Below are positions 12,771 to 58,417 of a DNA stretch of 64,000 nucleotides, one piece after another. This stretch comes from Calothrix sp. PCC 6303 (lineage in GTDB: Bacteria > Cyanobacteriota > Cyanobacteriia > Cyanobacteriales > Nostocaceae): assembly GCF_000317435.1 (NCBI RefSeq), contig NC_019751.1, positions 248,001 to 312,000 on the forward strand, written 5' to 3'. Each line of letters opens with the position of its first letter. Position 1 is the stretch's first letter. The notes under the pieces are model-generated. The model ran no database searches and was not told the DNA's origin. It was given only the letters and a program-made list of their open reading frames with translations. The translations under genes and the position numbers were made by a program.

Positions 12771-12909
12771 TTAAGCAGCTTTAGCAGCAGTTGCTTTCTT
12801 TTTCCAAGGAGTTGGAATCAAAGCCCAAGTAGGACTGTTGAGCGCCATGTCCATGTCACGAGCGAAGATAGCGAAGCCATCATAACCGTGATAAGGACCG
12901 GAGTAATCC
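12771..12909 (-). CDS. nifD: nifD 3' end (last 45 codons)
   Basis: This stretch reads [21 protein letters not shown]... to a stop at 12771, the conserved C-terminus of NifD. It has no start codon and begins inside the 11-bp repeat. Joining it to the 5' part at 27137-27147 gives a continuous 496-codon nifD. The frame was checked base by base: TGG GAT TAC TCC G joins GT CCT TAT. Confidence 0.97.
12899..12909. repeat. nifD element attachment repeat, nifK side
   Basis: CGGAGTAATCC (minus strand GGATTACTCCG), identical to the known 11-bp core used by XisA in Anabaena and to the copy at 27137-27147, in direct orientation. Confidence 0.97.
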
Positions 12910-28625: not shown

Positions 28626-29427
<802 letters not shown>

Positions 29428-37893: not shown

Positions 37894-38460
37894 CTACGCA
37901 ACATCTCCCCAAATTTCTACTAACTTCTCCAATAGCATTTCGGCTAAATCTTGTAATTCGCTATCATCTTGCTGAATTGTTTCACGAGTAGCACCAACAG
38001 CGCGAGTATCTCCAGCTAATATTTCCCCTCCGGCGTAGCGCCACTCAAATTCATCGCCAGTTCGGTAAAGAAGCTCAAATTTTGCCACAATCTCTGATAA
38101 AGGTTTGTTATCTAATACAGAGCGTACTTGTACTGCCACCGAGTCATCAGTTTGCAGAAAAGCGATCGCAACTTCAAGACGAGTAATTTGCTCAAGGAGA
38201 GACTCAATCGGCTGGAGTTCTGACACTGCTAGCTGTGCAGGCGGATTCACTTCATCAACGGCTGGTGCAAATCCCAATAGCTGCACTGAATCTAGGCTTT
38301 CCTGAAACTGTATAGCTACATAGCCAATCCTATTTTCTATAGTATCTGGTAATAAAATGACAGTTTCTTGGGGTAAAACTGGACTGCATTCTAATGTCCC
38401 CACATTTGGAATTACCAAATCAGCTACATTTAATAAAGCTGCTTTAACTGGATTCCAAGA
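37894..38460 (-). pseudogene. DUF1822 gene, 5' truncated
   Basis: The reading frame from SWNPVKAALLNVADLVIPNVG onward matches DUF1822 proteins of cyanobacteria, including LECSPVLPQETVILLPDTIENRIGYVAI. Conservation begins exactly at SWNP (about 38460). The upstream bases are the start of the methyltransferase gene on the other strand, so the ORF's own ATG (38559) is artificial and the N-terminal about 100 residues are missing. It lies 50 bases upstream of the TPR gene and was probably co-transcribed with it. Confidence 0.75.
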
Positions 38461-38471
38461 AAAAGATAGCT

Positions 38472-39785: not shown

Positions 39786-42634
39786 TCCCCATACAAGTTA
39801 AAGCCAGCCCAAAAGCTAGGATTAGCTATTTCATCTCTACAATTTGGTAAGCAACGGTTAAGACAATCTAACTGTGTACGACGTAAGGCTTCATCCCTGG
39901 GAAACTTATCTAAGTAATAATAAAATCTAGTCATAAAGGATACTGCGACCCGATCGTCTACTTCCCAGAGGGAACCCAAAATACTTTGAGTCCCCGCTCG
40001 CCAGAGGGTTTCTGGTAAGCTGATAATCCACCGTCTGGGAAGGATAAAGTGGTCAGCAGACCAACAAGAGGAAAGGGTTGCATGGCGTAGTTTTGTTAGG
40101 TCGATTTCGGAGAGTTCCCTGAGACTGAGAATTTCCTGTTCTCCTGAGTCGGAAATTAATACTAGTCCTGAGCTATCGGGTTGATTTGGCTCAAAAGTCC
40201 CATGACAAGCGATGTGGAGTAGGCTTGCTTTGGATATGGTTTCTATAATGGCAGCTTTGCAAGCATTATCATTTTCTAACTGCAAATGCTTAATTTGATG
40301 ATGGTTTAACCATTGATTGATATGCTGGAGTTCTCTTCTGACTCCAGGTAAATGACGAAACTTGCTATTGCCATTGGATATACCAATAACAAGTGCTTGT
40401 TTTTTTAAAGGTATGGATCGTTTAGGTTTAGCTGGTTTACTTTTAGATTCATAGGCGATCGCAAGAGCATAGTGTTCGATTAAATACTTTCCTTTGTAGA
40501 TAATGGAGGCAAAGGGAAACCCATGCAAGATGTCATCGGGTACTATTGTTAATGCTCGGATATGCTTAGGTATGCAATCGAATATTTTGGGTAGTTGTAA
40601 AATATCTGCGAGGTTATCGGTAATTTCTTGACCAGTTTGTTGCTCGTCATCGTTATCACCAAGTATGTTCATATCTCGACCACCGTTAATCCTCTGGATG
40701 TTTTGATACCAGCGTTGGACGACATTACGTATTTCTAAGCGGGTGGTGGAAATAACCGCAAAATCAAATAAAAATCGACTGGTTTTGACGACTAAAACGC
40801 GATCAGGCAAAATCAGAAATGAAAGGGTGAGTCTATTTTTGGGGTGAGTTAAAATACGCGATAAAAGTGAACTTGGAGGTAGGAATTGTACTTGGATGCT
40901 TTCGTTTTTAATCGTGCGTTTGGCTAAAGCATCTTTATAGTGATCGATATGCTCAACTAAGGCATTTAGTTTTTGCATTAATTTTAAGCGTAACCAAGAG
41001 CGTAGGACAAAGTTGGTCTTGCTGATTTTTTCCTGTAAGCGCTGTAGTTGGTTTATTTGTATTGCTATATATTCTTCATCTGCTGTCCATTTATTCAATA
41101 AATAAAATACTTGGTCTTCTGGTGTTAGCGATGAGGTCATTTGTTCGAGTAATTGATTTGTTGATGTTGTTAAAGCCTCAATTTCGGAGAGTGGATAATT
41201 TAATCGCGTGCGACACCAAATTAATATCCGTTGTACTTGCCAGAGTTCTGGTTTTAAAGATATTTCCTCTAGTTGTGGACAAATTTCTTCTAAAATTTGA
41301 TGGGCTTGGTTAATTTTTTTACTGTCATTACATTCTGTACCTTGGTAGTAAGATAACATTCCTGATAGTATCTGTATTTGTACTTGGATAAATTGAGAGT
41401 CAGTAGACTTGAAAACCTTTTTGATGTGTTGAAGTAAATTGCTAGCATCTTTAAATTTAAGATTACTTAAATGCCATTGAAAGGCTAAGGCACGGTCTTC
41501 AAACCAAGATAAATAATTGGAGGATTGGGTTGATAAATCTGGGGATTCCCATATTTTTTCTACTGTTTGCTTGTGGTATTTTGGTTTACGCATATCCACT
41601 ACTGACATGCTTGTGGGACTTGCTGTTACCAAGGAACGACTACGGGCGCTAGCAAGCTGTAGTAATAATTCTGACCTTGCCGCTAGGGTTTTATCACCTA
41701 TCTTTAGAGCATTATTTTGAGTATCTTCTAAATATTGTCGGGCTGTGCTTGTTTGGTTGAGGAGAATTAAAATATGGGCAAGATTGAGGTTAGAGCGCAA
41801 AACTGCTCGTGGCGATCGCATGATTGTGCATTTTTCTTGAACTTGCTGAAATTGTTTTAGTCCTGCACCCAAATTTCCCCACAGCAGATGGAGTTTACCC
41901 GATAGCTCCAACCAACGAATTTGATACTCTAAGTGTTGAGAGCGATCGCATGGTTCCTTGAGCAGGGATAGGTAATTATCGGCTTGTTCAAAATCCCCTT
42001 TTTCCAGATATGCTGATGCGATCGCCATTTTTAATGGTAGTAATGTTTGCTTTGCTAAATCGGGTGCTTTCTCTCCTTGAGCATGAAATAAACCCCTTTG
42101 TAGTCCTTTTAATGCCTCACCATATTGCCCTAATGCACTCAGTAAGCGCCCCATCACCAGGTATAATTCGGTAAATAATACAGTTCTGTCGTTGGAGTCT
42201 GCATTGCGCCAAATGCAACGGTTTTCCCACTGTAATAATCCTGAATCAGAAAACTGTATGTCATCAATATCACCAATGCGTGGAGCCATTTCTTGTAATA
42301 ATTTTTGTGCTTGGTATAAGCTTCCTCGATCTAGGGATAAGTGAATGCGTCTGAGGTTTGCGTAATCAGCTGATGGTTCGCTGTTTGCTTTTTGATATAA
42401 ACCAACTGCACCACAAAGTAAGTCATCTGCTACTTGAAATTCACCTAAAATACCAGCTAAATCAGCGAGGGACTGGATAACTTTTAAATCTGCATCAATT
42501 AATTGGGAATTTAAAAGTCGATAGGTAAAAATTTCGCATAAATCATCGTAAGCTGCGAATAAATTGCCTTGTTGCCATTTTGTTTGAGCTATTGTAAAAG
42601 CAGCTTCCAGTTCGTCAAAGTTGTCGTATGACAA
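39626..42634 (-). CDS. TPR-CHAT domain protease
   Basis: 1002 residues. Helical TPR-like repeats fill about 1-560. A CHAT caspase-like domain follows (about 690-950) with the catalytic histidine in LLHIACHGTFEP and cysteine in ATLSSCWSAD. The closing motif is PSFWAGFNLYGDYHPL. The last about 50 residues (RISLIASSKIVETGG... on) overlap the methyltransferase tail and may be read-through. CHAT proteins with TPRs act as proteases in regulated-death and defence pathways. It is separated from the operon upstream by a terminator at 42692. Confidence 0.88.
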   Translation of the reverse strand: MSYDNFDELEAAFTIAQTKWQQGNLFAAYDDLCEIFTYRLLNSQLIDADLKVIQSLADLAGILGEFQVADDLLCGAVGLYQKANSEPSADYANLRRIHLSLDRGSLYQAQKLLQEMAPRIGDIDDIQFSDSGLLQWENRCIWRNADSNDRTVLFTELYLVMGRLLSALGQYGEALKGLQRGLFHAQGEKAPDLAKQTLLPLKMAIASAYLEKGDFEQADNYLSLLKEPCDRSQHLEYQIRWLELSGKLHLLWGNLGAGLKQFQQVQEKCTIMRSPRAVLRSNLNLAHILILLNQTSTARQYLEDTQNNALKIGDKTLAARSELLLQLASARSRSLVTASPTSMSVVDMRKPKYHKQTVEKIWESPDLSTQSSNYLSWFEDRALAFQWHLSNLKFKDASNLLQHIKKVFKSTDSQFIQVQIQILSGMLSYYQGTECNDSKKINQAHQILEEICPQLEEISLKPELWQVQRILIWCRTRLNYPLSEIEALTTSTNQLLEQMTSSLTPEDQVFYLLNKWTADEEYIAIQINQLQRLQEKISKTNFVLRSWLRLKLMQKLNALVEHIDHYKDALAKRTIKNESIQVQFLPPSSLLSRILTHPKNRLTLSFLILPDRVLVVKTSRFLFDFAVISTTRLEIRNVVQRWYQNIQRINGGRDMNILGDNDDEQQTGQEITDNLADILQLPKIFDCIPKHIRALTIVPDDILHGFPFASIIYKGKYLIEHYALAIAYESKSKPAKPKRSIPLKKQALVIGISNGNSKFRHLPGVRRELQHINQWLNHHQIKHLQLENDNACKAAIIETISKASLLHIACHGTFEPNQPDSSGLVLISDSGEQEILSLRELSEIDLTKLRHATLSSCWSADHFILPRRWIISLPETLWRAGTQSILGSLWEVDDRVAVSFMTRFYYYLDKFPRDEALRRTQLDCLNRCLPNCRDEIANPSFWAGFNLYGDYHPLMRISLIASSKIVETGGDKPKTLRSAYRSLLGIFKLSNNKIGLTKPHRS

Positions 42635-42691: not shown

Positions 42692-42720
42692 AAAACCCAG
42701 CGTTTTATCCTAGCTGGGTT
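42692..42720 (-). terminator. Rho-independent terminator of the caspase operon
   Basis: On the minus strand AAACCCAGC...GCTGGGTTTTT forms an 8-bp stem followed by a U-run, 19 bases after the stop of the upstream gene. It marks the end of the operon starting at 55693. Confidence 0.88.
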
Positions 42721-42738
42721 TAGGTAGTTTATTTTTAT

Positions 42739-43320
42739 CTATGATTCAGTCACTACATAGACAGGTTTTTCCAACTTTTCGGGGGAACAATTAGGATTTT
42801 GGTTTTCTCCTTCTGCTGGTTGATTTTTACATTCAGTATTCGAGTCTGAGTTTTGAGATCGATTTTTTAGCGAATTTGCAATGTTAGTGCCTTTGAATTG
42901 GGTTGAAGTGTGACTAGAAGCGCTTACATCACCAAAACCACTTTGACTAATTGGTACTGCACCAAGTTCTCCAGGTTGGAGTTTGTAAAGTCTACCTCCT
43001 GAACCTGAAGAAATACTCTGTTCAATTGGTTTAGTAGTATCTAAATTATTCAAGCTAGGAGAATCTTGAACATAGATAAACTCTGTATCAGTTTCAATTC
43101 TCCTGAAGTTGCGATTATTAATTTCATCAAAGAAGCTTTGCCTTATGGGTGTCGCACCTTTTGAAGTAACGATTTCTATATTTAATCTGCCTAGACGTTG
43201 CTCTACTACAGCTTTTTGCAACATTAATTGCGGGTCTGAAGCGTGTAGTTTTATGGATTCATTAATGAATTTTTCGGCTTTGCCATAATTTCCATTTCTC
43301 AGTGCTGAATTAATATTTTT
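42739..43320 (-). pseudogene. 3' part of the exported 1221-codon gene
   Basis: 190 codons beginning NSALRNGNYGKAEKFINESIKLHASDPQLMLQKA (a TPR-like helix pair) and ending EKLEKPVYVVTES. They join in frame to 44757-47848 once the ISL3 element and one copy of ATATTTTT are removed. The tail is Ser/Asn-rich and low-complexity. Confidence 0.85.
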
Positions 43321-44756
43321 GGCTCTTCGGTACTTGTTATGCCATACTAATGAACTAAGTCCAATTTAACAAGCATCTAATCTTGAAATTTTGAAAATTT
43401 CTGAATCCATATCCAGAGCGTTTTATCAGCTTAAGTTTATTATTAATTCCTTCTACTGTTCCACTTGTTGTTCCATTATCAAAATAAGCGATAATTTCAT
43501 CAAACCAGCGAATAATAGTATTATTGCTACGAGGAAAGTATTTCTTTGCTTTTGACAACCACATTCCTAGCTTAAAAACTCCTGTGTACCAATGATCAGT
43601 CAGGTTAAATATTTTTCTAATTTTTTCTTTAAAATCATGCATTTCTTTCAAAACTGGAGATACTCTTTTAACTTCTCTGAGCTTTACTACTTGTTCGTCA
43701 GTTAAATTATCTTCATTCTTAAGTAAGGAATATTTACTATTTTTCAAGCCAGCTAAAATGATTTCATACTCAGCTTTTTCTGATTCTGACTTGGTTTCTT
43801 TGATTTGCTCTTCAATACTTCTTCTTTCCCTTTTTCTTTGCGTGTCTAGTTCTTTGTTTATTTGTGTCATAACGTGAAATCTATCTGCAACTACTTGGGC
43901 ATTGGGCATTAATTCCATAACTAAGTTTTTATAACCTTGCCACAAATCAATACTGACCTCTTCTATTTGCTGTAAGACTTCTAATCCCCATCCAGAAAGA
44001 GCTTCTTTGATTTTATCTTGTGTTCTTCCATTCAAAATCGCAAGTAATTTAGATGCATCTAAGTCTACTAATACTGCACAGTAATCACCTTTGCCTTTGA
44101 CTAAAGCAATTTCGTCAATTCCAAGCCTTTTTAAGTTTGATGGTTTGGAATCACATAATTCTTCCGATGCATCCTTTAACATTCGTTCTATCTCTTCAGT
44201 TGTGACAATGCCTTTTGATGCGACACTATGAATATCACTTTCTAAAACATCTTGTATTATTTTTTGTGCTAGTCGATTTGTGTAAGTCCTCTTCTTTTTT
44301 GCATAATACAATTCCTCACTAAATGGTTTTTGACACTGATAACACTTAAATTGTCGTCTATTTACTTCTAAGAATACTGGCTTCTCACTAAAAGGTAAGT
44401 CTTTAATAATATGGCTATGGTTTTGATGTAATTTTTCGCTTTTTGTCCCACAATGAGGGCAAATACTGTATGATTTTGTTGACTCAGTTTGTAAAATAAT
44501 CCCAATTCCATTGTAAATGCGCTGTGAAGTGACTTTTATATCTTTTAAATCCAGAAGTTCTGTCAGAACTTTTATACTTCTTTTCTGAGTCATGGTTATC
44601 AGATATAGTAAAAATTATTTTTGTTGTTTTTATAGAAAACAACAAATAATGTCTACCTGTCAAGCTAGCAAAGCTTTAAAACTATATTTCAATGTAATTA
44701 TTTAGAGATTTTTATGCTTTAGCTTAACCTTTTAGCATAACAAGTACCGAAGAACC
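43321..44756 (-). mobile_element. ISL3-family insertion sequence A
   Basis: 1,436 bp. Inverted ends start GGCTCTTCGGTACTTGTTAT (left) and GGTTCTTCGGTACTTGTTAT (right, inverted), with a perfect 8-bp target duplication ATATTTTT at 43313-43320 and 44757-44764. It splits the last gene of the caspase operon. Confidence 0.93.
43355..44593 (-). CDS. ISL3-family transposase A
   Basis: 412 residues. N-terminal zinc finger CPHCG...CYQC, helix-turn-helix region, DDE core with LGIDEIALVKGKGDYCAVLVD (first Asp), VVADRFHVMTQINKEL (second) and TSGTVEGINNKLKLIKRSGYGFRNF (Glu). Complete. Related to, but clearly different from, the ISL3 copy at 51636. Confidence 0.94.
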   Translation of the reverse strand: MTQKRSIKVLTELLDLKDIKVTSQRIYNGIGIILQTESTKSYSICPHCGTKSEKLHQNHSHIIKDLPFSEKPVFLEVNRRQFKCYQCQKPFSEELYYAKKKRTYTNRLAQKIIQDVLESDIHSVASKGIVTTEEIERMLKDASEELCDSKPSNLKRLGIDEIALVKGKGDYCAVLVDLDASKLLAILNGRTQDKIKEALSGWGLEVLQQIEEVSIDLWQGYKNLVMELMPNAQVVADRFHVMTQINKELDTQRKRERRSIEEQIKETKSESEKAEYEIILAGLKNSKYSLLKNEDNLTDEQVVKLREVKRVSPVLKEMHDFKEKIRKIFNLTDHWYTGVFKLGMWLSKAKKYFPRSNNTIIRWFDEIIAYFDNGTTSGTVEGINNKLKLIKRSGYGFRNFQNFKIRCLLNWT

Positions 44757-47700
44757 ATATTTTTTATTCGGGACTGTAAGTCTAATTTTCTAGATAGAAC
44801 AAATGCCATTGGGTCTTCAGAAAGTTTCTGAGCTTTTTGACTAGGATTAAATCCTTCTTCTGGAAAATCTACTCCTTTTCCGAACCTTTGTGCATTTCCC
44901 GGTATTTGAGCTTCATCTACAATATCTACATTAATGATTCTCGAATTTTTACCTGGTTCTGCAACAGTCATCATTGATTTTGAGGGTGGTAAACCGTTTC
45001 CACCTCCGCTTCCTTCGCTCAGTTTTAACGATTTATTAGAGTTTGGTAGTTTGACGTAGATATCATTAGGTTGGGATGGTGAATATCTGAAAGGAAAAAC
45101 ATCACTTTTTGAAGCGATAAAAGATGGAATATCACCATTATGCTTGCTAAGATCAGAAGCTAACGAATAGCCTGTGTCAATATCTAGACTTTCAAAAGCT
45201 GTTTTAAAGCCATTTTTGGTTTTGGTAATATTCAGTTCGCCAAACTCAGCACTAATTCCTTTGGCATCTTCTAATCTTGTTGTCAGTTTTAGCCCATTGT
45301 TTGATGTTTGTGTAGGGACTGCTTTGAATTTAGAAAACTGGTTTAATTCTGCATCTAGATTGCGAATTTTTGTTCCTGCTTTGGGTTCAGTTATAATTGA
45401 ACTAGTTTTTTGACCTAGAGGCTTAATTATGATATTAGTCTCTTCAGAAGTTTTAAGTGCTAATTCACCCTTTTGAGGTTTAACTTCTTGCTTGTAAGCA
45501 AGAGTTTTCTGAGGATTTATATTAGACCTTAAGGCAATATCGTCCAATGGATTATCCTTCGGTAAAGATATGCTATCTGCAAAATCCATTTTATTACCAA
45601 GAGAAACGCCTCCGTAAAGACTAGGATATGATTTACCATAACGCTCATCAATTTTTTCCGAGTCTAGAAACTTTAACTTATCCGTTTTTTTACCTCTATC
45701 ATTGTAGCCTTCTGGAATAAATGTAATTTGACTCCATTTTTTAAATTTCAAATTTTTACCTTGCTTTTTAGCCCAATTTAGGAAGCTATCATTATCTCTA
45801 TTAACCTCAATTGATTTTAAAAAGTCTAAAGGATCAGATTGCAAAAAGTTTTCTGACTTTTGACAACTTGTATCTTGAAAACAACTTAAAATATTAATTA
45901 TTAAGTTCCACTTCATAATTTGATTAAGTCGCTCAAATTGTGGCTCATATCGAGCAACTTCTTCATAATGATTATTCCACCAATTAATAAAGGCAGTTGT
46001 ATCGGGAGGTGCTGTAACCTCATTCTTTGATTTAGAATCGTTGGAAGCAAGTGCTTTAATATGTGTAGCATGACGAGAAAAAACTATATTCATGTCTACT
46101 TTGTTGCTGCTATAACCACTTTCATTTGGGTCAAACCAAAGCCGAACAAACTGTTCTTTTTGTCTATCTGATTTATAAATTGGCGAAGTGGGAATTTGAG
46201 TACTTGATCTAAAACCTTTAATACCTGTTTCTTCAGTTGCCTTCTCAAAATTAAAGTCAAAAATTTTCATTAACAAATCTGTGTAGAAAAGGGTCATGCC
46301 CACTTCTGTTCCTCTGATTAAGTCACCGTCATAGCGTGCAAATTGAAAGCCATTATTCTTTTTCGATGCTAACAAATTATTAATTTTGTATTCATAATTA
46401 AGCCGTGTATTTGTTTTTTGTTCTGCTTTCTCAGATGATTTTTTTAGGGTATTATCTTCTGCTAGTTTAGCTTCCAGTTCTTGGATAATAATGTCTAATT
46501 CAATAATCTTTGAATTGATTTCTTCAGGCGATAAAGCAGAATTTGATATGTTCTCCCTTTCAATTTTATATACTTCTATTTGCTTGTTAATAGATTCTTG
46601 ATTTTTTTTCTCTTTTTCCTGATAACTTTTGATTTCCTTTTGAATTTCTGTTGCTATTTCTCCTTGTTTGAATATTTTATCTTTTTCTGATACCCACACA
46701 CTTTCTATTTTGTCAACTAATTTAAAATAATCTTCTGCATCTTTACGTGATAAGCCATTTTTGGCTTTTTTAATATCCTGTTCATTAATCACAGCTTTCC
46801 CATCTATTTTTATTTTTTTCAGTAATGGTATTGCTTCGTCTAAAGCTTTTTCCAATCCTGGGTAGTTATACTCCCAATCTAAAGAAAAACCACTACCATC
46901 TACTATTCTGTTTTTGCGTGCTTCTTCACGCATTGGTTTTTTAGCATTTTCGAGTTCATCACCCGATAAGTTTTTTGTTTTTTTAGACCAATTTTTGTAA
47001 AAATCACTTTCGTAAAAATCATTTGATTTTTTATCTATGTCTTGACGTGCTTGGTATAGTGCAGCAATATCTTCTACTTTAAGGACTTGATATTTTGGGC
47101 TATCTTTGCCTCTATAAATTTTACGTCCACCCAAAACTAAGCCTGAATCAATAACTTGAGTAAAAGTTATATCATCTGTTTTACTTAGGAAGTCTTTGAG
47201 TTTGTCTTGATTAGTTATAGTTGTTTCGTAGTAACCATACTCATTACTAAATATTTTAGCTGTATCAATTTCCCCACGTCTAGTAATTTGGGCTAGTTGT
47301 TGATTAGCAGATATATCATATTCAAATACTTCAATTACCTTTGGTTTTATACCGATATCCTTACGGTGATAGTCTGCAATTTCTGCAAGGTCTTTCTTGC
47401 GTTCTTCTGATGATTGGTTTTTAGGAACAAGCGCAACTAATCTCCCATTACCAATGTGGCGAGAACGAGTAGCACCATACTCGAGTTTGGCATTAGCCAT
47501 AGACCTCATAAAATCATATCGAATAATAGAAATATCATGGATACTTCTGCTAATTTCTTGAGTAGAAAGTCCTTTGCCGGAAAGAACTGTTAATAATAAC
47601 CAGTCACGTAATTGTTCTTCTTTTTCTGTAGCTGAATTTTCAGGATTATTTAAATTTTGAGTTTCGGCTAATTTTTCATTTAACTCGAAAGTTACTTCTT

Positions 47701-47848
47701 GAGGCTGATTGAGAGGAAAATTTTTCTCAGTTGTGCTTTCTACTGGTCTAGCAATAGACGGAACACTAGTCTGAGCATACGCAACACCTAAAACAATGGG
47801 TGAGACTGCGATACTAATAATGCCTAATACGTCAATAATTTTTCTCAT
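44757..47848 (-). pseudogene. 5' part of a large exported protein gene
   Basis: 1030 intact codons followed by a few IS-derived ones. Signal peptide MRKIIDVLGIISIAVSPIVL...AYAQ (cut near residue 25). A mixed domain follows (about 75-280), then a coiled coil (about 395-500), a domain with cysteines SCFQDTSC (near 690), and a Ser/Lys-rich distal part. With the 3' part it is 1221 residues and ends in a TPR-like pair. Family not recognised. Export implies a role outside the cytoplasmic membrane. It is the last gene of the sigma/caspase operon. Confidence 0.8.
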
Positions 47849-47916
47849 GACTTGCTCCTTCTATGTTTATATTTTCGGTAATTGTTTGTAGAGTTGATAT
47901 TTTCTGTATTCTGTGA

Positions 47917-49932
47917 TTACTGATTCTCTTGATTATCAGGAAAATCCTTCTGTAGTTGTTTGTGAAGTTGCAGATATTCTTCCTGTTCCAGTGTCAATTT
48001 TTCTCCAGATGATTGTTGAGGAAACCAACGCAATAAAGACTCTGTAAAAAGTTCCTTAATCTCTGTAGCTCGTTCATCTTTATTAAAAATAGAACCATTT
48101 TGAAAGAAACTTTTAGATGCTTTGAGCACCGCTTGATCATTTTGTACTTGACTTGCTGTTAAAATTTGTTGAAAAGCTGTCTTTCTAACTACAAATGTTG
48201 TTTTTTCTCGCATCATAACGAAGCCAGAAGCAAGAATTAAAATACCTGCTAATACTGCCTGAATTTTAATTCGTTTATCTTGGGAACTTAAAACCCAGGG
48301 AATAAAAGGTTCCATACTAAATTTCCCTTTTGTTGATACAGGTGTAAGTACCTGAGTTGCTTGCACATTCCCTGTAGAGGTAGCCACAAAAATATTATGT
48401 TCCCTCTCTTCCCCAAATAGGATATGTTTTAAATAATCACAAATCAATGCGGAATCTAAATCTGCTAAATCTGGCTTTGTCTCAACCAGTTTTTTCCAAG
48501 CTGGTTGTATTGCTTCTTTAGCTTGAGGTACTTCTTGTAGTAGGCTATGAACAGCTTCCTGTAATTGAAGTGCCGTATTTATTAAGTTACCAGTAGATTC
48601 AATTGCATTTTTCCCTCCCTTCTCCTCAGCAAATTTCAGCCATCCGTCACTTGGTTCTAGTAGTCCAATTTGATGCCAAAGATAAATTGCTTGTGCTGCA
48701 AAAAATGCATTTTCTGTTTCTTTCTTTTCCTCAGAATCAATATATGCATTTATTGGTATAAAGCCTTGTTTTGCTTCTGCTAATAGCTTTTCTCCTTTTT
48801 CATTGAGCTGAGAAGTATTATTGTTTGCAGATGATATTAATGTTCCTAATGGATTAATCAATAAACCCACAGTAAAAACAACTGCTGACTCAGCACTAAA
48901 CGAGCGAGAATTATTTTCAACTGGAGCTAAAAGTTGATTCATTTGCTGTTGAAGCTGCTCCATTATATCGATTAGTTCATTGCGAGTAGCAACAGCTTGT
49001 TCAGAGTAAGGATTGTAAGTAATGGCTTTTTCTCCACAAACCAGCGCTTCAGCTAGTTGTTCGTTTCTCGCTAAATTCACTGCTCGCAAGCGGTAGAGGA
49101 AACTTAACATCTCAAAATTTTTCAAACTATAAGGATATTTCTTCAGATATTTCTCTAATTGATTTATACCCTTCTTTAAATATTTGATGTTACTTGCATG
49201 GTATATTTGTACATTTTCATTTGTCACATGTTCCAAAGCGGCTAAGTAGTGAATCTCTGCTAGTTCATCTTGAAAATCGATATTATGAGGTAAATATTTT
49301 AAGCGTTGCTGACAGTATTTAATCGCTAATTGCCATTTTTTTGCTTCTTTACAGGCATTAATTCGCGTCTGCCAAGCTTCTGCTAGGAGATTTTTGACTT
49401 CTTCTCCATCAATGACAGACAACTCCAATAGCTGCTGGATATAGTCAATGTGAACAAAAGCACGCTCATTCCAAGATGGCTTTGTTACATTCTGTATCAA
49501 ACCATTATAAAAAGCGCAGTGAGTATCGATAAATAACTCGTGTAGTAAAAGCTGACGCAGTTTTACCGGGTTATTCATTATTATTGCTTCAGAATGACCA
49601 CCAGCTACAGTTAACGCTAAATCTTGCCAGACTTCGCGTTCTGCAACTAAGTTCTTCAACTCTACTTGAACTTCACGCCAGAAAAAATCAGCCCGCTGCC
49701 ATTTTGATTCCAATTCAGATGCGATCGCTTGTTGATGCTGACGCAACAAATGCCCAAAACGACCTAAAACATCAAGACGGGAACCAGAATATTTTTGCTC
49801 AATCAAATTCAGAAGCTTACAAGCTGCTTGCTGTTCAGTAGTTAAATCTGCGCGATCGCAACTCAAACTGTAGAGGTTTGCAGAGATGGAAGGGAATACT
49901 CGTTCTTGAGGACGACATAAAAGTGCAACCAT
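47917..49932 (-). CDS. TPR-like protein with one membrane segment
   Basis: 671 residues. Helical TPR-like hairpins fill about 20-330 (AEAWQTRINACKEAKKWQLAIKYCQQRLKYLPHN; LAEALVCGEKAITYNPYSEQA). A weakly hydrophobic stretch lies at about 352-368 and a membrane helix near residues 565-580 (IKIQAVLAGILILASGFVMM), leaving a short C-terminal helical tail. Not recognised as a named family. It is located between the caspase gene (169 bases upstream) and the exported protein (68 bases downstream), so it may be a membrane scaffold for both. Confidence 0.75.
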   Translation of the reverse strand: MVALLCRPQERVFPSISANLYSLSCDRADLTTEQQAACKLLNLIEQKYSGSRLDVLGRFGHLLRQHQQAIASELESKWQRADFFWREVQVELKNLVAEREVWQDLALTVAGGHSEAIIMNNPVKLRQLLLHELFIDTHCAFYNGLIQNVTKPSWNERAFVHIDYIQQLLELSVIDGEEVKNLLAEAWQTRINACKEAKKWQLAIKYCQQRLKYLPHNIDFQDELAEIHYLAALEHVTNENVQIYHASNIKYLKKGINQLEKYLKKYPYSLKNFEMLSFLYRLRAVNLARNEQLAEALVCGEKAITYNPYSEQAVATRNELIDIMEQLQQQMNQLLAPVENNSRSFSAESAVVFTVGLLINPLGTLISSANNNTSQLNEKGEKLLAEAKQGFIPINAYIDSEEKKETENAFFAAQAIYLWHQIGLLEPSDGWLKFAEEKGGKNAIESTGNLINTALQLQEAVHSLLQEVPQAKEAIQPAWKKLVETKPDLADLDSALICDYLKHILFGEEREHNIFVATSTGNVQATQVLTPVSTKGKFSMEPFIPWVLSSQDKRIKIQAVLAGILILASGFVMMREKTTFVVRKTAFQQILTASQVQNDQAVLKASKSFFQNGSIFNKDERATEIKELFTESLLRWFPQQSSGEKLTLEQEEYLQLHKQLQKDFPDNQENQ

Positions 49933-50101
49933 GACAACTCCTAATGAATATTCTATGACTGGTATCGAGAAACCAAATAGTATTTAGTAAATGTTTTAGC
50001 GATTAGATGTTGAGATAAATCAATTGAGAATTACGAAAAGTTCATTTATTTTCTATCCAAAGAACTATTGTTTTACAAAAATATTATGTTATGCAAAATA
50101 T

Positions 50102-51619
50102 TTATCCACACGTAGAATATATAATCTTTATAAAAGCTTCATGAATAAATATTAAATTTACATTCTTTGTCTTTCCTACTGCTAATTTACTTATCAGAGT
50201 ATGATGATGAAATGCCTTTTGTTTATCTTGTTTTCCTCTCTGGATGATTACCCAACTTACAGTTCCCACTAGCATCAAAATAAAAATAAGAGAAATAGCC
50301 ACCATCAATTGTGAATACTTGAATCCCCTGGAATCTGTGGACATATTATTTGCCGGGAGTGATTTTGAACTTTGATTTAATATTTGATGTTCGGGTAGCT
50401 GTAAATTAATATTTCTGGGTATTGTAGTTACAACCAGAATCTCATTAGTTACCCAATCATCTAAGATTGTTGATTGTTCCGTTTCATCTGGACAAGGTGC
50501 GATCGCACGCATTTGGATTTGTTGAATAAGACAATTACCTTCTCCAATATTATTAGAGCGAGAAGAACGTCTATTGAGGTTTTCAATATTATCTTGTGCT
50601 AGTAAATTAGCATCGAATTCACTCGTACTCACTATCAATTTCAGGATATCTTTATATTCTCTAACTCCACGTCGTTGAAAGTTAATTGGTATAGATATAG
50701 GAATATATTTCCCTTCTAAAACCCATGTCTCTTCTCCTGGTTCTAGCCAAATTCCAGTACAACCCCCAGCAAAAGGAATTGCTGTTATGGCAAAAAGCTC
50801 AGTTAAATTTAGTAAGACAGAGTAAAGTGTTATATCACTTGTATTAATTAATTTAACTTGTATTGCTGGAGGTTTTAATGTGTCGTCTTGAACTTTATAT
50901 GTCAATGAAAGCTGATAATCCTGAACTTCATAAGTTTCTACATCTTGGAGATAAAACTTTACTTTTACCGCATTAGCTGGAATCAAACTATTTGCAGGAC
51001 TTGTAATAGAAGCAATATTTCTCCATCGTGCAATATGTTCTAAAAAATAAATTGCTTGTAATGCACTCTCAATAGTAAAACCCGATATTGGAGATATTAC
51101 CTGATAGTTATCGCTAGCACGAATAATCTGATATTCATCATTGATAGCTTTGAGGTAAAAATCAGCTTCGTAGGAATTATCAACTCCACAAATATACAGC
51201 GAAGCATTTTCCCCAAAACTAGCTGTTTGGATAGCTTGATGTGCAAAACTAACTCCTGACGTATCCCCTTCAATATAAACCTGGAGAAAAGCTACTGGAA
51301 GATAAGTAATTACAGCTTTATAAATTAACTCTCTGTTTAACTCTTCTCTTTCCCCAGATATATTAATTCTACTAGACTGCGGCAAAACTTCCGTGACTTC
51401 AGCCACTGCGATCGCATTTTCCAATTGGCTAATATCTTCTAAATCTATAGGGAAAATAGCTAATCTGGTATTTTGATTTCCCTGGGTAGAAATAATACCA
51501 TGAATTGCACCGCCATCAATAATCCAAGCATTACTCCCATCATACATAACAGTAAAGTAAGTTAGTCTTTTAGCGATTGCTTTTCCTAAAAAAGGCTGGT
51601 CTAAATAGCTAGGATTTGT
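50102..51619 (-). pseudogene. 3' part of the caspase-family gene
   Basis: 502 codons that continue the caspase frame from SYLDQPFLGKAIAKRL after removal of the ISL3 element. Beta-rich domains fill the middle (KVKFYLQDVETYEVQDYQLSLTYKV). A membrane helix lies near the end (LMVAISLIFILMLVGTVSWVII), with a 45-residue basic tail. The reconstructed protease (790 residues) is membrane-anchored at its C-terminus. The ORF's first 33 codons (to 51709) are IS sequence. Confidence 0.87.
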
Positions 51620-53030
51620 GGTTCTACCGATCCCCTTATGGAAATTTAACACTAAAGTGCCAAGATAATAAGCAGCGTAATCTAAAATTTGCGAAATTAC
51701 GGAAACCATATCCTAATCTTTTGACTAGCTTCAACTTATTATTAATTCCTTCTACAGTGCCACTAGTTGTTCTTTGTTCAAAATAACCAACTATATCTCC
51801 AAACCATCTAAAAATTGTTCTAATAGTTTTCGGAAAGTATAAACTCGAATCATACATCCAATCTAATAATTTTAGTACCCCATCGCCCCATGATTCAGCA
51901 GTGTTAAATATATTTCTGAATTTCTCTTTTAACTCGTGCATTTTTGATAGAGTTGGAGATACATTTTGAACTGCTTTTAGCTTTTCTTTTTGAGTCTCAT
52001 TTAAAGAATCTTCGTTTTTCAACAAGCTATATTTACTTTTTAATAATCCCGCCAATATTCGATCTCTATCTAATTTATTCTTGAGGGAATTTGCTTCTTT
52101 TTTTTGCTGTTTACGCGCTGCATCTAATTCATCATTTACCTGTTTCATTACATGAAATCTATCAATAGTTACTTCTGCATTTGGCATCAACTCTTTGACT
52201 AAACTTTTATATGGTTTCCACAAGTCTATACTAACTTCTTCAATTTGCTCTAAAACCTCATTGCCCATACTCTGCAAAGCTTGAGTCATTTCTGATTGAC
52301 GACGTGACTCAACAATATCAATTGGTTTTCTTCTGTCTAAATCTACCAATACTCCTAAATAATTACCTTGACCTTTAATTAAAGAAATTTCATCTATACC
52401 TAGACGCTTTATTTCACTTGTCTCAAAACTGATATCTGATTCTAAAGAATCTAGCATCGATTGAATTTCTGATTCACTTAAATCATTTCTCTCTGCAACA
52501 CTACGAATGTTACTGTCTAACACTTGTTTCACTATTTCTATTGCAAATCTTTTAGTATATCCTCGTTGTTTATCGACAAAATCTAAATCCTCACTAAATA
52601 ATTTTTGACAATTTTTGCACCTAAATTGACGACGATCAATTCTTAATATTACTTGCTGATTACTCCATGGCAAGTCTTTAATATTACGCCAATGATGCTG
52701 ATGTATACTATGACTAGCTTTACCACATCTTGGACATTTAGAAGATTTGGAGTCAACTTGTATTTCTATGATTAATCCTAAGCCTTCAATATCTTGACAA
52801 TTTAATACTTTTATCCCTGGTAAATTCAGAATTTGCTCTACGGAAAACTTCATAGCGAGCACCGAAAATTTAATTTATGGCTATTTTACTTGTATTCTCT
52901 CACAGATTTGGTATATTTAAAAATCCATAAACCTTTATCTAGCTTGAGTTGTAGCTATACATTCTTGTTAAGTTATAGCCATTTTTTCACATCTAAATAT
53001 ATTTTTTTTCATAAGGGGATCGGTAGAACC
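51620..53030 (-). mobile_element. ISL3-family insertion sequence B
   Basis: 1,411 bp. Inverted ends GGTTCTACCGATCCCCTTAT on both sides and a perfect 8-bp duplication GGATTTGT at 51612-51619 and 53031-53038. It interrupts the caspase gene after codon 287; excision with one copy of the repeat restores the frame. Confidence 0.94.
51636..52862 (-). CDS. ISL3-family transposase B
   Basis: 408 residues (or 405 from MKFSVEQIL). Zinc finger CPRCG...CKNC, then LGIDEISLIKGQGNYLGVLVD, TIDRFHVMKQVNDEL and TSGTVEGINNKLKLVKRLGYGFRNF as the DDE sites. Complete and perhaps active. Divergent from copy A, so the two insertions came from different elements. Confidence 0.94.
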   Translation of the reverse strand: MLAMKFSVEQILNLPGIKVLNCQDIEGLGLIIEIQVDSKSSKCPRCGKASHSIHQHHWRNIKDLPWSNQQVILRIDRRQFRCKNCQKLFSEDLDFVDKQRGYTKRFAIEIVKQVLDSNIRSVAERNDLSESEIQSMLDSLESDISFETSEIKRLGIDEISLIKGQGNYLGVLVDLDRRKPIDIVESRRQSEMTQALQSMGNEVLEQIEEVSIDLWKPYKSLVKELMPNAEVTIDRFHVMKQVNDELDAARKQQKKEANSLKNKLDRDRILAGLLKSKYSLLKNEDSLNETQKEKLKAVQNVSPTLSKMHELKEKFRNIFNTAESWGDGVLKLLDWMYDSSLYFPKTIRTIFRWFGDIVGYFEQRTTSGTVEGINNKLKLVKRLGYGFRNFANFRLRCLLSWHFSVKFP

Positions 53031-53893
53031 GGATTTGTTGCTTCAACTTGTGGGGATTGATTTGTATAAATACTCCGTACTAAAATATTAGAACGTTTCA
53101 ACAAATCTCTGTAAGTCAAATTACTATTTCTTTGTAGACTATCAAGTAAAAAGTAGGAGAAAATTCCTCTTTTTTGGCTTTGATGTTCCCTTGCTAACTC
53201 ATTATCTCTACAAGCTGCTAGCAGTATATATTCTCCTCTAGATAAAGAAAATCGATTTGCGACATTACTAGAATTTGAGGTAGCAAGTAAACTATTGATT
53301 TCTTCATCTGAAAATATAAAGCTGGAAAGTGGTCTTTCTTTAGATTCTGTATTAACTGTACGTATACCTGTGTATGCGTTCAAAGATACATCATTTTCTG
53401 CTCGTGTCCCTCCACCAGAATGACAGCAATCCAAAATCACGACAAAATGGGGATGATTTTGAGAAACCTCTGCAATTAATTTGGCAAGCTCCTTATCAGC
53501 TAAATCCCAAATACCATCTGTACGACTATCCCAACACACCAAAGTTTCATTCAAATGGTCTGGTTCTAAATGCCAAAATTCCTCACTAGCATTTTCCTGA
53601 GAACCATGTCCACTAAAGTAAAATAATGCAACATCATTGCTTGTAGCTTGACACAAATGTTCCCGGAAACCATCGATAATTGCTTGACGAGTTGCTTGAA
53701 CATCAATCAGTCTTTTGAGATGTAATTTATCCTCATTCGTTACTAAATGCTTTTTTAAAAATTCATCTAGTGCAGTAACATCATTTACACAACCTTTTAA
53801 TGAAGGAATTTTAGAAGATTTGTAATTATTAATTCCAACAGCTAAAACATAAATATTGCGATCCATCACTGTACCCCTTGAGTTTTTGTCCAA
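53031..53893 (-). pseudogene. 5' part of a caspase-family protease gene
   Basis: 287 codons holding the whole p20-like caspase fold: YVLAVGINNYKSSKIPSLKGCVND at the start, catalytic histidine H96 in YFSGHGSQ, and catalytic cysteine C157 in VILDCCHSGG. An acidic specificity region typical of orthocaspases is present (aspartates near 112 and 155). It is broken by ISL3 B; the truncated ORF would still encode a soluble caspase domain ending in seven IS-derived residues. The start may be M10. It lies 67 bases downstream of a DUF1822 gene. Confidence 0.9.
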
Positions 53894-53960
53894 AGTCCAA
53901 ATCTAAACCAACTTCAGGTTTGCAGAATTATTATTGAATATGAATTATCACGCTCAATAA

Positions 53961-54929
53961 CTAGATAATAAATTTTTCTAAGATACTATCTTCTCCAAGA
54001 CTAATTTTTAAACCAAATTTATCCCCTACATTTCCTTTGAATCTAAGCTGTAACCAGTTATTTGCTTTTGATTGTTTTTTAAGTTGGGGAATTTGTTTAT
54101 CTTCCTCATCTAACAATGTCATCTTGATTCCATCTAGTAAAAATATTGATTCACTAGCAGGGTAAAGTCTTAAGACAATCTCAACTTCATCTTGATTGAC
54201 TTGTGTTTGACGCAATATTAGCAAAACTGGTTCTGAGGGATGTTGCAGATGTATAAATTTGGCAGCACCAGATTCTCTTTTTTCTGTTTCATCTACAGGA
54301 GAAATGGCTAAATCTTTTGCAACGGCTAATTCTGCTTCCCATCCACCATCTAATAAACCTTCAAACCATTTGCTCAATTTTACTATTCCTGTGTTCAGTT
54401 GACTTACAGCAACATCAACTATATCGACTTTATTAGTTGACTTTTCCATAACTGAAACAGCTTCTAATTTGTGTAGGTAAAGTAAAAAGTCATGTAGAGA
54501 GTTTAATTTCGTTAAAGATAATTTCTCATTTTCAACAGATTTAGCAAAACCTAATATCTTTGCTTGTCTATTATCTTCATCAATTTCTACCACCATATAA
54601 CCAATACGTTCTGATAAAACTTCAGGTGGGATCTCACACAATTCTTCTTTGGGAAGTACAGGACGACACTCAATCAAACCCTTATCTTTAATAAACAAGC
54701 TAGCTGTATTCATTAAAGATGACATAATTTTATCTAAACCATGACTTTTGCTTGGTTCTGTTTTTATTCCTATGCACTTGCAGTAAAAGTCAACAGCTAA
54801 TATAGCTAAAGTATTCAGATAAACTGTACGCGATTTTTGTTTGTTCTTTTCTTGCTGACTGAATTTTTCAGCAATTTTAAACATTTTCCCATCAATGGGT
54901 ATCGTAAAAATCAACTCATTGGCATCCAT
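53961..54929 (-). CDS. DUF1822 family protein
   Basis: About 322 residues from the methionine at 54929 (MDANELIFTIPIDGKMF), chosen because a GGAG site precedes it; the ORF extends 17 codons further. DUF1822 features: YLNTLAILAVDFYCKCIGI near 38-56, IECRPVLPKEELCEIPPEVLSERIGYMVVEI, and a C-terminal NWLQLRFKGNVGDKFGLKISLG strand region. The function of DUF1822 is unknown; in cyanobacteria it recurs beside sigma-like factors and CHAT or caspase genes, as I recall. It starts about 75 bases after the sigma-like gene. Confidence 0.85.
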   Translation of the reverse strand: MDANELIFTIPIDGKMFKIAEKFSQQEKNKQKSRTVYLNTLAILAVDFYCKCIGIKTEPSKSHGLDKIMSSLMNTASLFIKDKGLIECRPVLPKEELCEIPPEVLSERIGYMVVEIDEDNRQAKILGFAKSVENEKLSLTKLNSLHDFLLYLHKLEAVSVMEKSTNKVDIVDVAVSQLNTGIVKLSKWFEGLLDGGWEAELAVAKDLAISPVDETEKRESGAAKFIHLQHPSEPVLLILRQTQVNQDEVEIVLRLYPASESIFLLDGIKMTLLDEEDKQIPQLKKQSKANNWLQLRFKGNVGDKFGLKISLGEDSILEKFII

Positions 54930-55003
54930 TATTATTTCTCCTGATTCATTGTGTAATTTATTCATCTCAATAATTTTCAAATATTTTTCTTGTTAACTAA
55001 ATC

Positions 55004-55693
55004 TCATAAGTATTTTTTAAAATAAGGACTAAATTCATCACAACAGCGACTATAAAATGAGTAAATAGGACCATGAGTCTTTCCTAAATTTAACTCTTGG
55101 GTAATTTCTTCCCAGGTTTTACATTCTTCATTCTTTTTGAGTAAAATAGCCTGAAAACTTGCTTGAGGATTCTTCTTAAATAGCTTACTAGCTAATAATC
55201 CTTCTGGATCTTCTTTAATAAATTCTATCAATTTCTCAGATGGAAGAGGATTTAAACTTGGAGGTTGATAACTTTCAAGAGGATTTCTTTCATATTCATC
55301 ACCATCCTTATTTAATCCTTTATCTATATATGAAACTTTTCCATCCCAATTCAGCCAATTAAAAACATTATTTTTGCGTTTTTTTAATAAAAACTTTACC
55401 CAAGCCATTACAGAATAATCAGAGTTGTATTTACCTATGTTTTTACAAATATATAAGTAAATATTTTGCAGCGTTTCTTCATAAATATATTCTGATAAAC
55501 CAACATTCCCTGGTTTTGGTAACTCCACCTTTATTCGCTCCATTAATAGGGTCATTAATTTTGTTAGCGCAATTTGTTTCTCTAACAATGCTTGTTGTCT
55601 ATCTTCATCACTAAGCGACTCATTCTCAGCTTTTATGACTGCTTTTTGAGCTTTCACAGCTACCTCATCCAGAGAAGAAAAAGATTTCCCCAT
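55004..55693 (-). CDS. Sigma-70-like factor, first gene of the caspase operon
   Basis: 229 residues. Residues about 65-110 (EYIYEETLQNIYLYICKNIGKYNSDYSVMAWVKFLLKKRKNNV) follow the pattern of sigma-70 region 2, in which the YxxxxxVMAWV stretch corresponds to the core-binding and -10 helices. The C-terminus (ILLKKNEECKTWEEITQELNLGKTHGPIYSFYSRC) resembles the region 4 helix-turn-helix. It is divergent from classical ECF factors, so DNA binding is inferred. As first gene it may control the operon itself. Confidence 0.7.
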   Translation of the reverse strand: MGKSFSSLDEVAVKAQKAVIKAENESLSDEDRQQALLEKQIALTKLMTLLMERIKVELPKPGNVGLSEYIYEETLQNIYLYICKNIGKYNSDYSVMAWVKFLLKKRKNNVFNWLNWDGKVSYIDKGLNKDGDEYERNPLESYQPPSLNPLPSEKLIEFIKEDPEGLLASKLFKKNPQASFQAILLKKNEECKTWEEITQELNLGKTHGPIYSFYSRCCDEFSPYFKKYL

Positions 55694-56143: not shown

Positions 56144-58417
56144 ATGTTGTCACGTAATTTTCTCTCTCAAATAGCTTACGAGCATGAACTGTCTCCAGAG
56201 CAGCAGCAAGTTTTTCTGATGCGAATTGGTGATGGTCTAAGTTACGAAGAAATTGCTGCTCAGTTGAATACATCCGCAGATGCTTGTTTGAAGCGGATGG
56301 GTCAGGTTTATAAAAAATTTAACATTAGCGGTGCGAGCCGGGGTAAGGAAAGTAAACTGAGATTTTTTCTGACAAACAGGTTAGAGAAGGTGACGGAGGA
56401 ATCTTCAGCACATACCCAATCAATTGAGGAAAAGAAACAGGAAACTCAACCCAACTCGGTTGCTCAAAACTTACCAGTGAGGGAATATACAACTTTTGTT
56501 GGTCGTGATCAAGAAATAACACGATTGATGGAACTTCTCGATTTTCAGCACACCGCTCATTTAATTAGTGTGGATGGGATTGGTGGTGTTGGGAAAACAA
56601 CCTTAGTAGTGGAAGTGGCTTATCGTTGTTTGCAAGCAAGCAATAACCAACTTCTGACTCCCAATCTTCCCACCTTTGAAGCCATCATCTTTACTTCCGC
56701 CAAACAGAATCATCTCACTTCCATCGGCATTTTGCCGCGATTAACTAAAGAACGGACACTGCGGGACATTTGCCGGGAAGTTGCTCGTATCCTAGACTTG
56801 AGTGAAATCACAAATTTACCCATCGAAGAGCAGTTTCAACCAATTCGAGAGAAATTGTCACAAACAAGAACTTTATTGATTGTTGATAATTTGGAAACCA
56901 TTGAAAATCAACAGGAAGTTCTCTCCTTCCTCTATGACTTACCACCAAGTGTGAAAGTTATTATTACTACCCGCGAACAAGCATTATTTGTCCCCATTCG
57001 TCTTGGTTGCTTACCCAGAGAACATGGTTTATGTCTCATCCAACAGGAAGCGCAAGAAAAAAGTATAAATTTGACTGCTGAAGAATCTCAGCAACTTTTT
57101 GAGGGAGTCAGTGGAATTCCCGCAGCAATTATTTATGTTATTGGTCAAATAGCAGCAGGTTATTCACTGGAAGATGCTCTCTCACAAATTAAAGAACCCG
57201 ATGGTGATGTTGCTCGTTTTTGCTTTGCTGGTTCAGTAATTCCCCTCAGAGGAACACCGCCCCATTATTTGCTGATGGCTCTTTCGTTGGGAGTTAAACC
57301 TATAACTAGAGAAACTGCTGCTAGTGTGGCTTTTGAGCAAGCTGACCCAATTTTAACATCCCAAGGATTAGCAAAATTGCAGCAGTTGTCATTGGTTTAC
57401 CACCAACAAGGACGCTATAGCTTGCTGGAACTAACCCGCGAATATGCTGCTTCTGAGTTAGCTGCAAATCGTGAATTAGCCCAACAGTTGCAACAGAGAT
57501 GGGTAAATTGGTATATCCGTTTTTCCGAGGTTTACGGAGGTACAAATTGGAAGGAGTGGCATCTTGGCTATAGTTACTTAGAAATCGAATGGGAAAACCT
57601 GAGATCTGTGCTTGAATGGTGTATGAGCCAAGGGATTTACGGAGATGCACGAACAATTTGGCAGCAGATTAAGGGTTATATTCATGTGCGTGGATATTGG
57701 GATGAACGCTTAGAGTGGACAGCTTGGTTAATTGAAACTGCGAAACAAGCAGGAGATTGGAAGTTTACAGTTGAGGTAATGTGCGATCGCGCTATAACTT
57801 TAATTAGGATGCGCCATGAAAACCAACTCACAGAAGCAGAGATATTACTACAGGAAGCTTGGAATTTACGTCAGCATCAAAGCATCGCATTACAGTTAGA
57901 GATAGCCACCAACATGGTTATCCTCTCCATTTATCAACAAAAATGGCAGCAAGCTGGAGAGTGGTTAACAGAGGAAGAAAAACTGTTAACCCAAACTTCT
58001 CTATCAGAACTAGAACGTCAGCAGCAGCAAGTTCATATTCTTTATTATCAGGGGCAGATATCCTTCAAAACAGGCAATTATCAGCAAGCACAAAGCTTTT
58101 TTCTGCAAGCATTAGAATCTGCAACAACAGCAGGATGGTTAAGAGCAACAACTGCAATTCAAAACTGGCTTGCAGATATAGCACTGGAACTAGGGAACCT
58201 CAAACAAGCACGACAATTGTTAGAAATTAGCTTCCCAATGGCAGAAAGACATAAAGATAAACTTTCTATTGCTTACCACAAAGCAACATTTGCCAAACTC
58301 GAAAAGCGTTCGGGTAATTTACCTCAAGCCAAGCGCTTGGCAAAGGAAGCAGCAGAAGGTTTTGAAAGTTTAAAGATGGTAGTGGAAGCAAAAGAAATGC
58401 GCTCTTTACTTTCTTGA
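56144..58417 (+). CDS. STAND NTPase (NB-ARC) with HTH-like N-terminus and TPRs
   Basis: 757 residues. An N-terminal sigma-region-4/LuxR-like helix-turn-helix occupies about 17-60 (ELSPEQQQVFLMRIGDGLSYEEIAAQLNTS). The NB-ARC ATPase has Walker A GIGGVGKTT (K151) after FVGRDQEI, Walker B LLIVDNLE, and sensor ITTREQAL. A winged-helix part and TPR-like sensor repeats fill 480-757. Such proteins act as ligand-triggered switches in transcription control, defence or cell death. It is divergent from the sigma/caspase operon, so it may regulate it (inference). Confidence 0.88.
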   Translation: MLSRNFLSQIAYEHELSPEQQQVFLMRIGDGLSYEEIAAQLNTSADACLKRMGQVYKKFNISGASRGKESKLRFFLTNRLEKVTEESSAHTQSIEEKKQETQPNSVAQNLPVREYTTFVGRDQEITRLMELLDFQHTAHLISVDGIGGVGKTTLVVEVAYRCLQASNNQLLTPNLPTFEAIIFTSAKQNHLTSIGILPRLTKERTLRDICREVARILDLSEITNLPIEEQFQPIREKLSQTRTLLIVDNLETIENQQEVLSFLYDLPPSVKVIITTREQALFVPIRLGCLPREHGLCLIQQEAQEKSINLTAEESQQLFEGVSGIPAAIIYVIGQIAAGYSLEDALSQIKEPDGDVARFCFAGSVIPLRGTPPHYLLMALSLGVKPITRETAASVAFEQADPILTSQGLAKLQQLSLVYHQQGRYSLLELTREYAASELAANRELAQQLQQRWVNWYIRFSEVYGGTNWKEWHLGYSYLEIEWENLRSVLEWCMSQGIYGDARTIWQQIKGYIHVRGYWDERLEWTAWLIETAKQAGDWKFTVEVMCDRAITLIRMRHENQLTEAEILLQEAWNLRQHQSIALQLEIATNMVILSIYQQKWQQAGEWLTEEEKLLTQTSLSELERQQQQVHILYYQGQISFKTGNYQQAQSFFLQALESATTAGWLRATTAIQNWLADIALELGNLKQARQLLEISFPMAERHKDKLSIAYHKATFAKLEKRSGNLPQAKRLAKEAAEGFESLKMVVEAKEMRSLLS

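Follow-up and report, generated by a model that had tools for sequence, protein, structure and literature searches.

Organization of the locus

In this study, we analysed a window of 64,000 nucleotides from Calothrix sp. PCC 6303 (contig NC_019751.1, positions 248,001 to 312,000) and focused on a minus-strand operon of six genes that brings together a sigma-like factor, a DUF1822 protein, a caspase, a TPR-like protein with a transmembrane (TM) helix, a large exported protein, and a TPR-CHAT protease (table 1). An earlier note, made from the sequence alone, had described the first five genes in close order. Open reading frame (ORF) calls and family searches found them there, at 42,739-55,693, with the caspase and the exported protein each in two pieces. 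The ORFs listed for these pieces span 53009-53893 and 50102-51709 for the caspase, and 44732-47848 and 42739-43224 for the exported protein. The 5′ ORF of the caspase (294 aa) has a TTG start, and its codon 10 is the likely ATG start.

The two genes are split by insertion elements, here called A and B. As the note had proposed, joining the flanks yielded a 790-residue caspase and a 1221-residue exported protein without stops. In addition, hydrophobicity profiles bore out the C-terminal helix of the joined caspase (residues 726-744), the helix of the TPR protein, and the N-terminal signal or anchor helix of the exported protein. We take the transposases of both elements to belong to the ISL3 family, of which inverted repeats and 8-bp duplications are typical. 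The inverted arms of element A are complementary at 96%, its duplication is perfect on either side, and its transposase occurs in six identical copies in the genome. It lies just past the catalytic domain of the caspase and leaves an intact C14-domain ORF. Both insertions are recent. Because insertion B divides the exported protein and a genome search found no second copy of it elsewhere, the operon is probably non-functional in Calothrix sp. PCC 6303.

A hairpin followed by a T run lies between the exported-protein and CHAT genes. It was found by direct reading and folding, and its loop is over the 8-base limit of the automatic scan, so it was not listed there. A similar hairpin stands at the equivalent place in Calothrix elsteri. 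Thus, a terminator-like hairpin does stand where the note had placed its clear terminator. However, the unit does not end with it, because in each of the seven other operons that we found, a CHAT gene comes next after the gene for the exported protein, which makes six genes.

Table 1. Features of the operon and its surroundings (positions in the window)
Feature	Position	Strand	Size	Evidence
ECF-like sigma factor gene	55004..55693	-	229 aa	Family profile and relatives
DUF1822 gene	53961..54980	-	339 aa	Pfam PF08852, E = 2.4e-46
Caspase gene, 5′ part (catalytic C14 domain)	53039..53893	-		Peptidase_C14 (PF00656), E = 3.6e-24
ISL3-type insertion A, inside caspase gene	51620..53030	-		Terminal inverted repeats, 8-bp duplication GGATTTGT
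Caspase gene, 3′ part (middle domain, C-terminal membrane helix)	50102..51619	-	790 aa joined	Frame across joined flanks
TPR-like protein gene, one clear membrane helix	47917..49932	-	671 aa	Weak TPR matches; helix 555-573
Large exported protein gene, 5′ part	44765..47848	-		N-terminal signal/anchor helix 4-22; family of 13 loci
ISL3-type insertion B, inside exported-protein gene	43321..44756	-		Terminal inverted repeats, perfect 8-bp duplication ATATTTTT
Large exported protein gene, 3′ part	42739..43320	-	1221 aa joined	Frame continuous with 44765-47848 on joining
Terminator-like hairpin between exported-protein and CHAT genes	42693..42721	-		9-bp stem AAACCCAGC/GCTGGGTTT, then T run
TPR-CHAT protease gene, sixth of operon	39626..42634	-	1002 aa	CHAT PF12770, E = 1e-60
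Divergent HTH (sigma r4-like), NB-ARC, and TPR regulator gene	56144..58417	+		NB-ARC, E = 7.6e-13; Sigma70_r4_2, E = 1e-9

Conservation and distribution

To find related loci, one genome per species was scanned with an alignment of the exported protein, and the matches were then annotated. We found the six genes in identical order, and mostly intact, in seven other Nostocales: C. elsteri CCALA 953, Calothrix sp. PCC 7103, Calothrix sp. C42_A2020_038, Cyanocohniella sp. LLY, Goleter apudmare, Tolypothrix campylonemoides VB511288, and Trichormus sp. NMC-1. Since the same order recurs in seven other species, the arrangement goes beyond chance, and a neighbourhood of at least three of the genes, on which the earlier note had made its proposal depend, is indeed conserved elsewhere.

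Shorter versions were found in more distant genomes. Pleurocapsa sp. MO_192.B19 carries the caspase, TPR, exported-protein, and CHAT genes; its contig holds no sigma or DUF1822 gene, with about 1.1 kb available upstream of the caspase. In Pseudomonas sp. C2B4, genes for a C14 caspase, an overlapping alpha/beta hydrolase, a TPR protein, an exported protein, and a CHAT protein were found, and the TPR and exported-protein genes overlap by 4 bases. In a Planctomycetota bin, genes for a CHAT-like and a TM protein are accompanied by one for an exported protein of 1709 aa, whose N terminus resembles a lipobox, and one for a TPR-CHAT protein. Here, the CHAT-like and TM proteins (locus L138, 7789-9601) have a 66-residue N-terminal domain in common (38% identity, E = 5e-12), which matches no Pfam family. 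Such sharing is expected of adaptor-linked conflict proteins, and in principle the domain resembles the adaptor domains that Kaur et al. (PMC8195603) describe as effector-associated. It should be noted that the spread observed outside cyanobacteria is a lower bound. Because the core exists without sigma and DUF1822 genes in Pleurocapsa and Pseudomonas, the operon is a conserved system, whose core crosses phyla and whose regulatory front end is specific to Nostocales.

The two proteases

The caspase contains the His/Cys dyad of peptidase C14, with His in FSGHGSQE and Cys in LDCCHSGG, and its closest solved relatives are metacaspases. Meanwhile, the CHAT protein has a His/Cys dyad in the motifs HIACHG and CWSAD, which are kept in its cyanobacterial orthologues. 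The catalytic motifs of both proteases are retained in all nine cyanobacterial operons. Judging from domains and dyads, both proteins are predicted to be proteases.

About 35 cyanobacterial relatives share the first ~680 residues of the operon caspase. Most of those examined run on into an alpha/beta hydrolase domain (DUF7379, LCAT/PGAP1-like), usually with the motif AHSMGG and thus a serine nucleophile, and these caspase-hydrolase proteins are 40-55% identical to the operon caspase over that first part. In contrast, the Nostocales operon caspases do not have this lipase-like domain and carry a helix or nothing in its place. The Pleurocapsa caspase reads AHGMGG, with the nucleophile Ser changed to Gly, and in Pseudomonas a gene of its own encodes the hydrolase, with the motif AHSLG. 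The Nostocales operon caspase has thus probably lost the lipase-like domain. Given the intact motif in relatives, its change in Pleurocapsa, the loss in Nostocales, and the separate gene in Pseudomonas, lipase activity looks original and dispensable.

The phylogenetic analysis included the nine operon caspases (eight from Nostocales and that of Pleurocapsa) and 18 non-operon relatives. The result showed that the operon caspases formed a single clade (support 100/99), within which the Nostocales sequences formed a subclade (100/100). Thus, the operon caspases share a common descent. At a separate locus (L120, 8124-15294), genes for DUF1822, CHAT-CHASE2, and a caspase-hydrolase protein stand consecutively, and this locus ties the caspase family to DUF1822 cassettes in a second way.

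The sigma-like factor and DUF1822

The sigma-like protein of the window alone had no match in Pfam above thresholds. The profile of its family matches region 2 of SigK, a sigma factor of the extracytoplasmic function (ECF) type, in PDB (E = 4.4e-6), and Pfam recognized Sigma70_r2 in 7 of 16 relatives and Sigma70_r4_2 in 4 of 16. The AlphaFold2 model of the DUF1822 protein (pLDDT 74) is mixed alpha/beta with a C-terminal beta-sandwich, and the model gave no significant match in PDB. DUF1822 has been labelled a TPR protein (PMC8195603). At the moderate confidence of our model, its alpha/beta fold and sandwich do not favour that assignment.

For each of the 20 top sigma homologues with retrieved surroundings, a DUF1822 gene was the neighbour of the sigma gene, and a protease-family gene usually came next. 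In the annotated representatives, this was mostly a CHAT-CHASE2 gene with DUF928, and otherwise a CHAT-nSTAND1-WD40 or trypsin-TPR gene. Such paralogous cassettes are common in these genomes. They resemble the operon in the sigma and DUF1822 families and in the leading position of the two genes. However, their CHAT domain is fused to a receptor or STAND domain, and they are without the C14 caspase, the TPR/TM protein, and the exported family. At locus L064 (2117-5998), the pair is followed by a 1293-aa trypsin-TPR protein, a different protease class in the equivalent slot.

The TPR/TM and exported proteins

In two species, the TPR gene consists of only the last 125-129 residues (L128, 9547-9936; L129, 9598-9975) while the operons are otherwise intact. 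These reduced genes keep the membrane helix and the outer tail. Since this is the sole part kept, the helix and tail seem to be what matters most in the protein.

The exported protein matched no family in Pfam, NCBIfam, or PADLOC, and a profile search found no solved relative. Its whole-length AlphaFold2 model (pLDDT 73.8) gave no significant match in Foldseek, and the best VIA matches were mostly long helices. No relatives were found in viral contigs or plasmids.

Selection and mosaic divergence

Between two intact operons, the ratio of nonsynonymous to synonymous divergence (dN/dS) was 0.13-0.38, and the operon genes are under purifying selection. In the caspase (overall synonymous divergence, dS, 0.065) and CHAT genes (0.055), the window hardly differs from C. 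elsteri. However, TPR residues 242-404 and exported-protein residues 81-842 form blocks with dS of about 1 or above and sharp edges, whereas the neighbouring stretches are mostly at 0.02-0.4. A similar peak was found between Tolypothrix and Trichormus at exported-protein residues 241-480. These blocks are replacements by a divergent allele, not products of fast point evolution. The mosaic pattern fits diversification of a recognition surface in this small sample.

Other features of the window

The operon has the divergent HTH-NB-ARC-TPR gene as its neighbour in the window and, among the seven other Nostocales genomes, in four. Just beyond the CHAT gene lie a second, truncated DUF1822 ORF (37894-38559, partial match) and, on the opposite strand, a DNA cytosine methyltransferase-like ORF (38472-39785). 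No Rfam families were found in the window. Farther away, GGATTACTCCG occurs in two direct copies (12899-12909 and 27137-27147), spaced by 14,238 bases (0.02 expected by chance), and the second copy falls where a truncated nifD (27123-28499) encodes its C-terminal end. The pair looks like a nifD element of heterocyst-forming cyanobacteria. In addition, nifH seems truncated, as a 155-aa ORF resembling the C-terminal half of NifH adjoins an IS110-type transposase ORF (29428-30849) within 28626-30849.

Relation to known systems

The earlier note knew of no described system with this composition, which holds only in part. Kaur et al. 2021 (eLife, PMC8195603) reported ECF sigma and DUF1822 genes beside caspase-family proteins of the EACC2 architecture and proposed a protease-triggered transcriptional response; the TRADD-N partner gene was missing from most of these ECF/DUF1822 neighbourhoods. 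As in that work, the ECF-like sigma and DUF1822 genes stand directly upstream of a caspase-superfamily protein, and the region after the caspase domain varies, being a membrane helix, a lipase-like domain, or nothing in the relatives here. However, the operon caspase has no EACC2-type domain ahead of it: the C14 match begins at residue 16 of the 294-aa ORF, which leaves no room for one, and the orthologues begin at the caspase domain. The TPR/TM, exported-protein, and TPR-CHAT genes downstream, and the occurrence of the core without sigma and DUF1822, also differ from that work.

Cyanobacterial orthocaspases and metacaspases (PMC3501461, PMC8283722) have the C14 domain with intact His/Cys, and among cyanobacteria-specific architectures, a metacaspase with a C-terminal membrane helix is the most frequent (PMC3501461). 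Unlike them, the operon caspase shares a dedicated operon with another protease of clan CD, a sigma factor, and an exported protein. PADLOC (2023 library) gave only its generic caspase model and a weak CHAT match, and we found no description of the caspase/TPR/exported/CHAT module in the open-access literature. Thus, the operon is a variant, partly anticipated in the literature, of the sigma-DUF1822-protease theme with another protease and three further genes.

Proposed function and alternatives

We propose, tentatively and with somewhat less than even confidence, that in response to stress or conflict an envelope-anchored sensor complex activates the two clan-CD proteases, and that the sigma factor and DUF1822 provide a transcriptional arm. 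The exported protein, with its N-terminal anchor and about 1100 residues outside the cytoplasm, would form an inner-membrane-spanning sensor together with the TPR/TM protein, whose TPR part would be cytoplasmic and whose single helix would lead to the conserved outer tail. On a trigger, the TPR side would recruit or activate both proteases, namely the TPR-CHAT protein in the cytoplasm and the caspase, for which a membrane anchor is usual. In Nostocales, proteolysis would be tied to transcription through the sigma factor and DUF1822, the latter being a sigma partner that is cut or released. The output may be a stress or anti-invader response, possibly cell death. The proposal builds on the observed gene order, conservation, dyads, helices, profile-level sigma relationship, and caspase descent. 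The note had suggested a link from an envelope signal through proteases to transcription; this is reasonable, and the families are conserved together under purifying selection, but the CHAT protease had been missed and the copy in the window is probably inactive.

Several points weigh against the sensor complex. The system is rare: among 293 genomes sampled from the order, 3 had exported-protein matches. The hairpin ahead of the CHAT gene could set its transcript apart from the others, two Nostocales operon caspases are without the terminal helix, and the window's own sigma-like protein falls under Pfam thresholds. The exported protein matched no family and, as a whole, no solved fold, and its location alone suggests a sensor. 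Furthermore, DUF1822 as a sigma partner is a guess, and the substrate, trigger, and output of the switch are all putative.

The main rival is recognition of invaders or non-self, in which a variable exported region would sense phage or rival-cell molecules, and the caspase and CHAT protease would kill or disable the cell. The high-dS blocks, which mark divergent-allele replacement in both pairs, speak for it, as do the lipase-like domains and the EAD-like shared adaptor of relatives. However, the pairs are few, recombination that brings in divergent alleles can be neutral, PADLOC returned only the generic matches above, and viral contigs and plasmids gave no exported-protein relatives; we regard this explanation as rather unlikely, although it may equal the sensor reading viewed from its output. 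A broader version would be a cross-phylum system of surface-recognition death or immunity, in which a polymorphic exported protein, exchanged between strains by recombination, signals via the TPR/TM protein to the caspase and CHAT protease, and to which Nostocales added sigma and DUF1822 while losing the lipase-like effector. This, too, we consider rather doubtful.

It is unlikely that the operon is instead a housekeeping sigma regulon for envelope stress or differentiation, in which proteolysis merely tunes the sigma factor without a role in death or immunity. Although the ECF-like sigma and DUF1822 genes head the operon in eight Nostocales, including the window, and the widespread paralogous cassettes with CHASE2 receptor domains resemble signalling units, the four-gene core exists without sigma and DUF1822 in Pleurocapsa and Pseudomonas, so transcription is not the basic output of the core. 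In addition, the system is rare and is disrupted in the window genome, unlike a core stress response. Finally, unrelated genes might stand together by chance or through shared ancestry of one chromosomal region, and the window, C. elsteri, and Goleter do have flanking genes in common. However, the flanks of the other operons differ and the order of the core is found again in Pleurocapsa and Pseudomonas, which contradicts this explanation and makes it extremely improbable.

Bacterial caspases are plentiful in multicellular cyanobacteria, and their triggers and partners are mostly obscure. The operon supplies a defined set of partners: another protease of clan CD, a putative sensor in the envelope, and a transcription factor. 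This set is kept in several strains and, as the core only, in another phylum. Thus, the trigger, the order of the proteases, and the link to the sigma factor become directly testable, and DUF1822 gains a genomic context.

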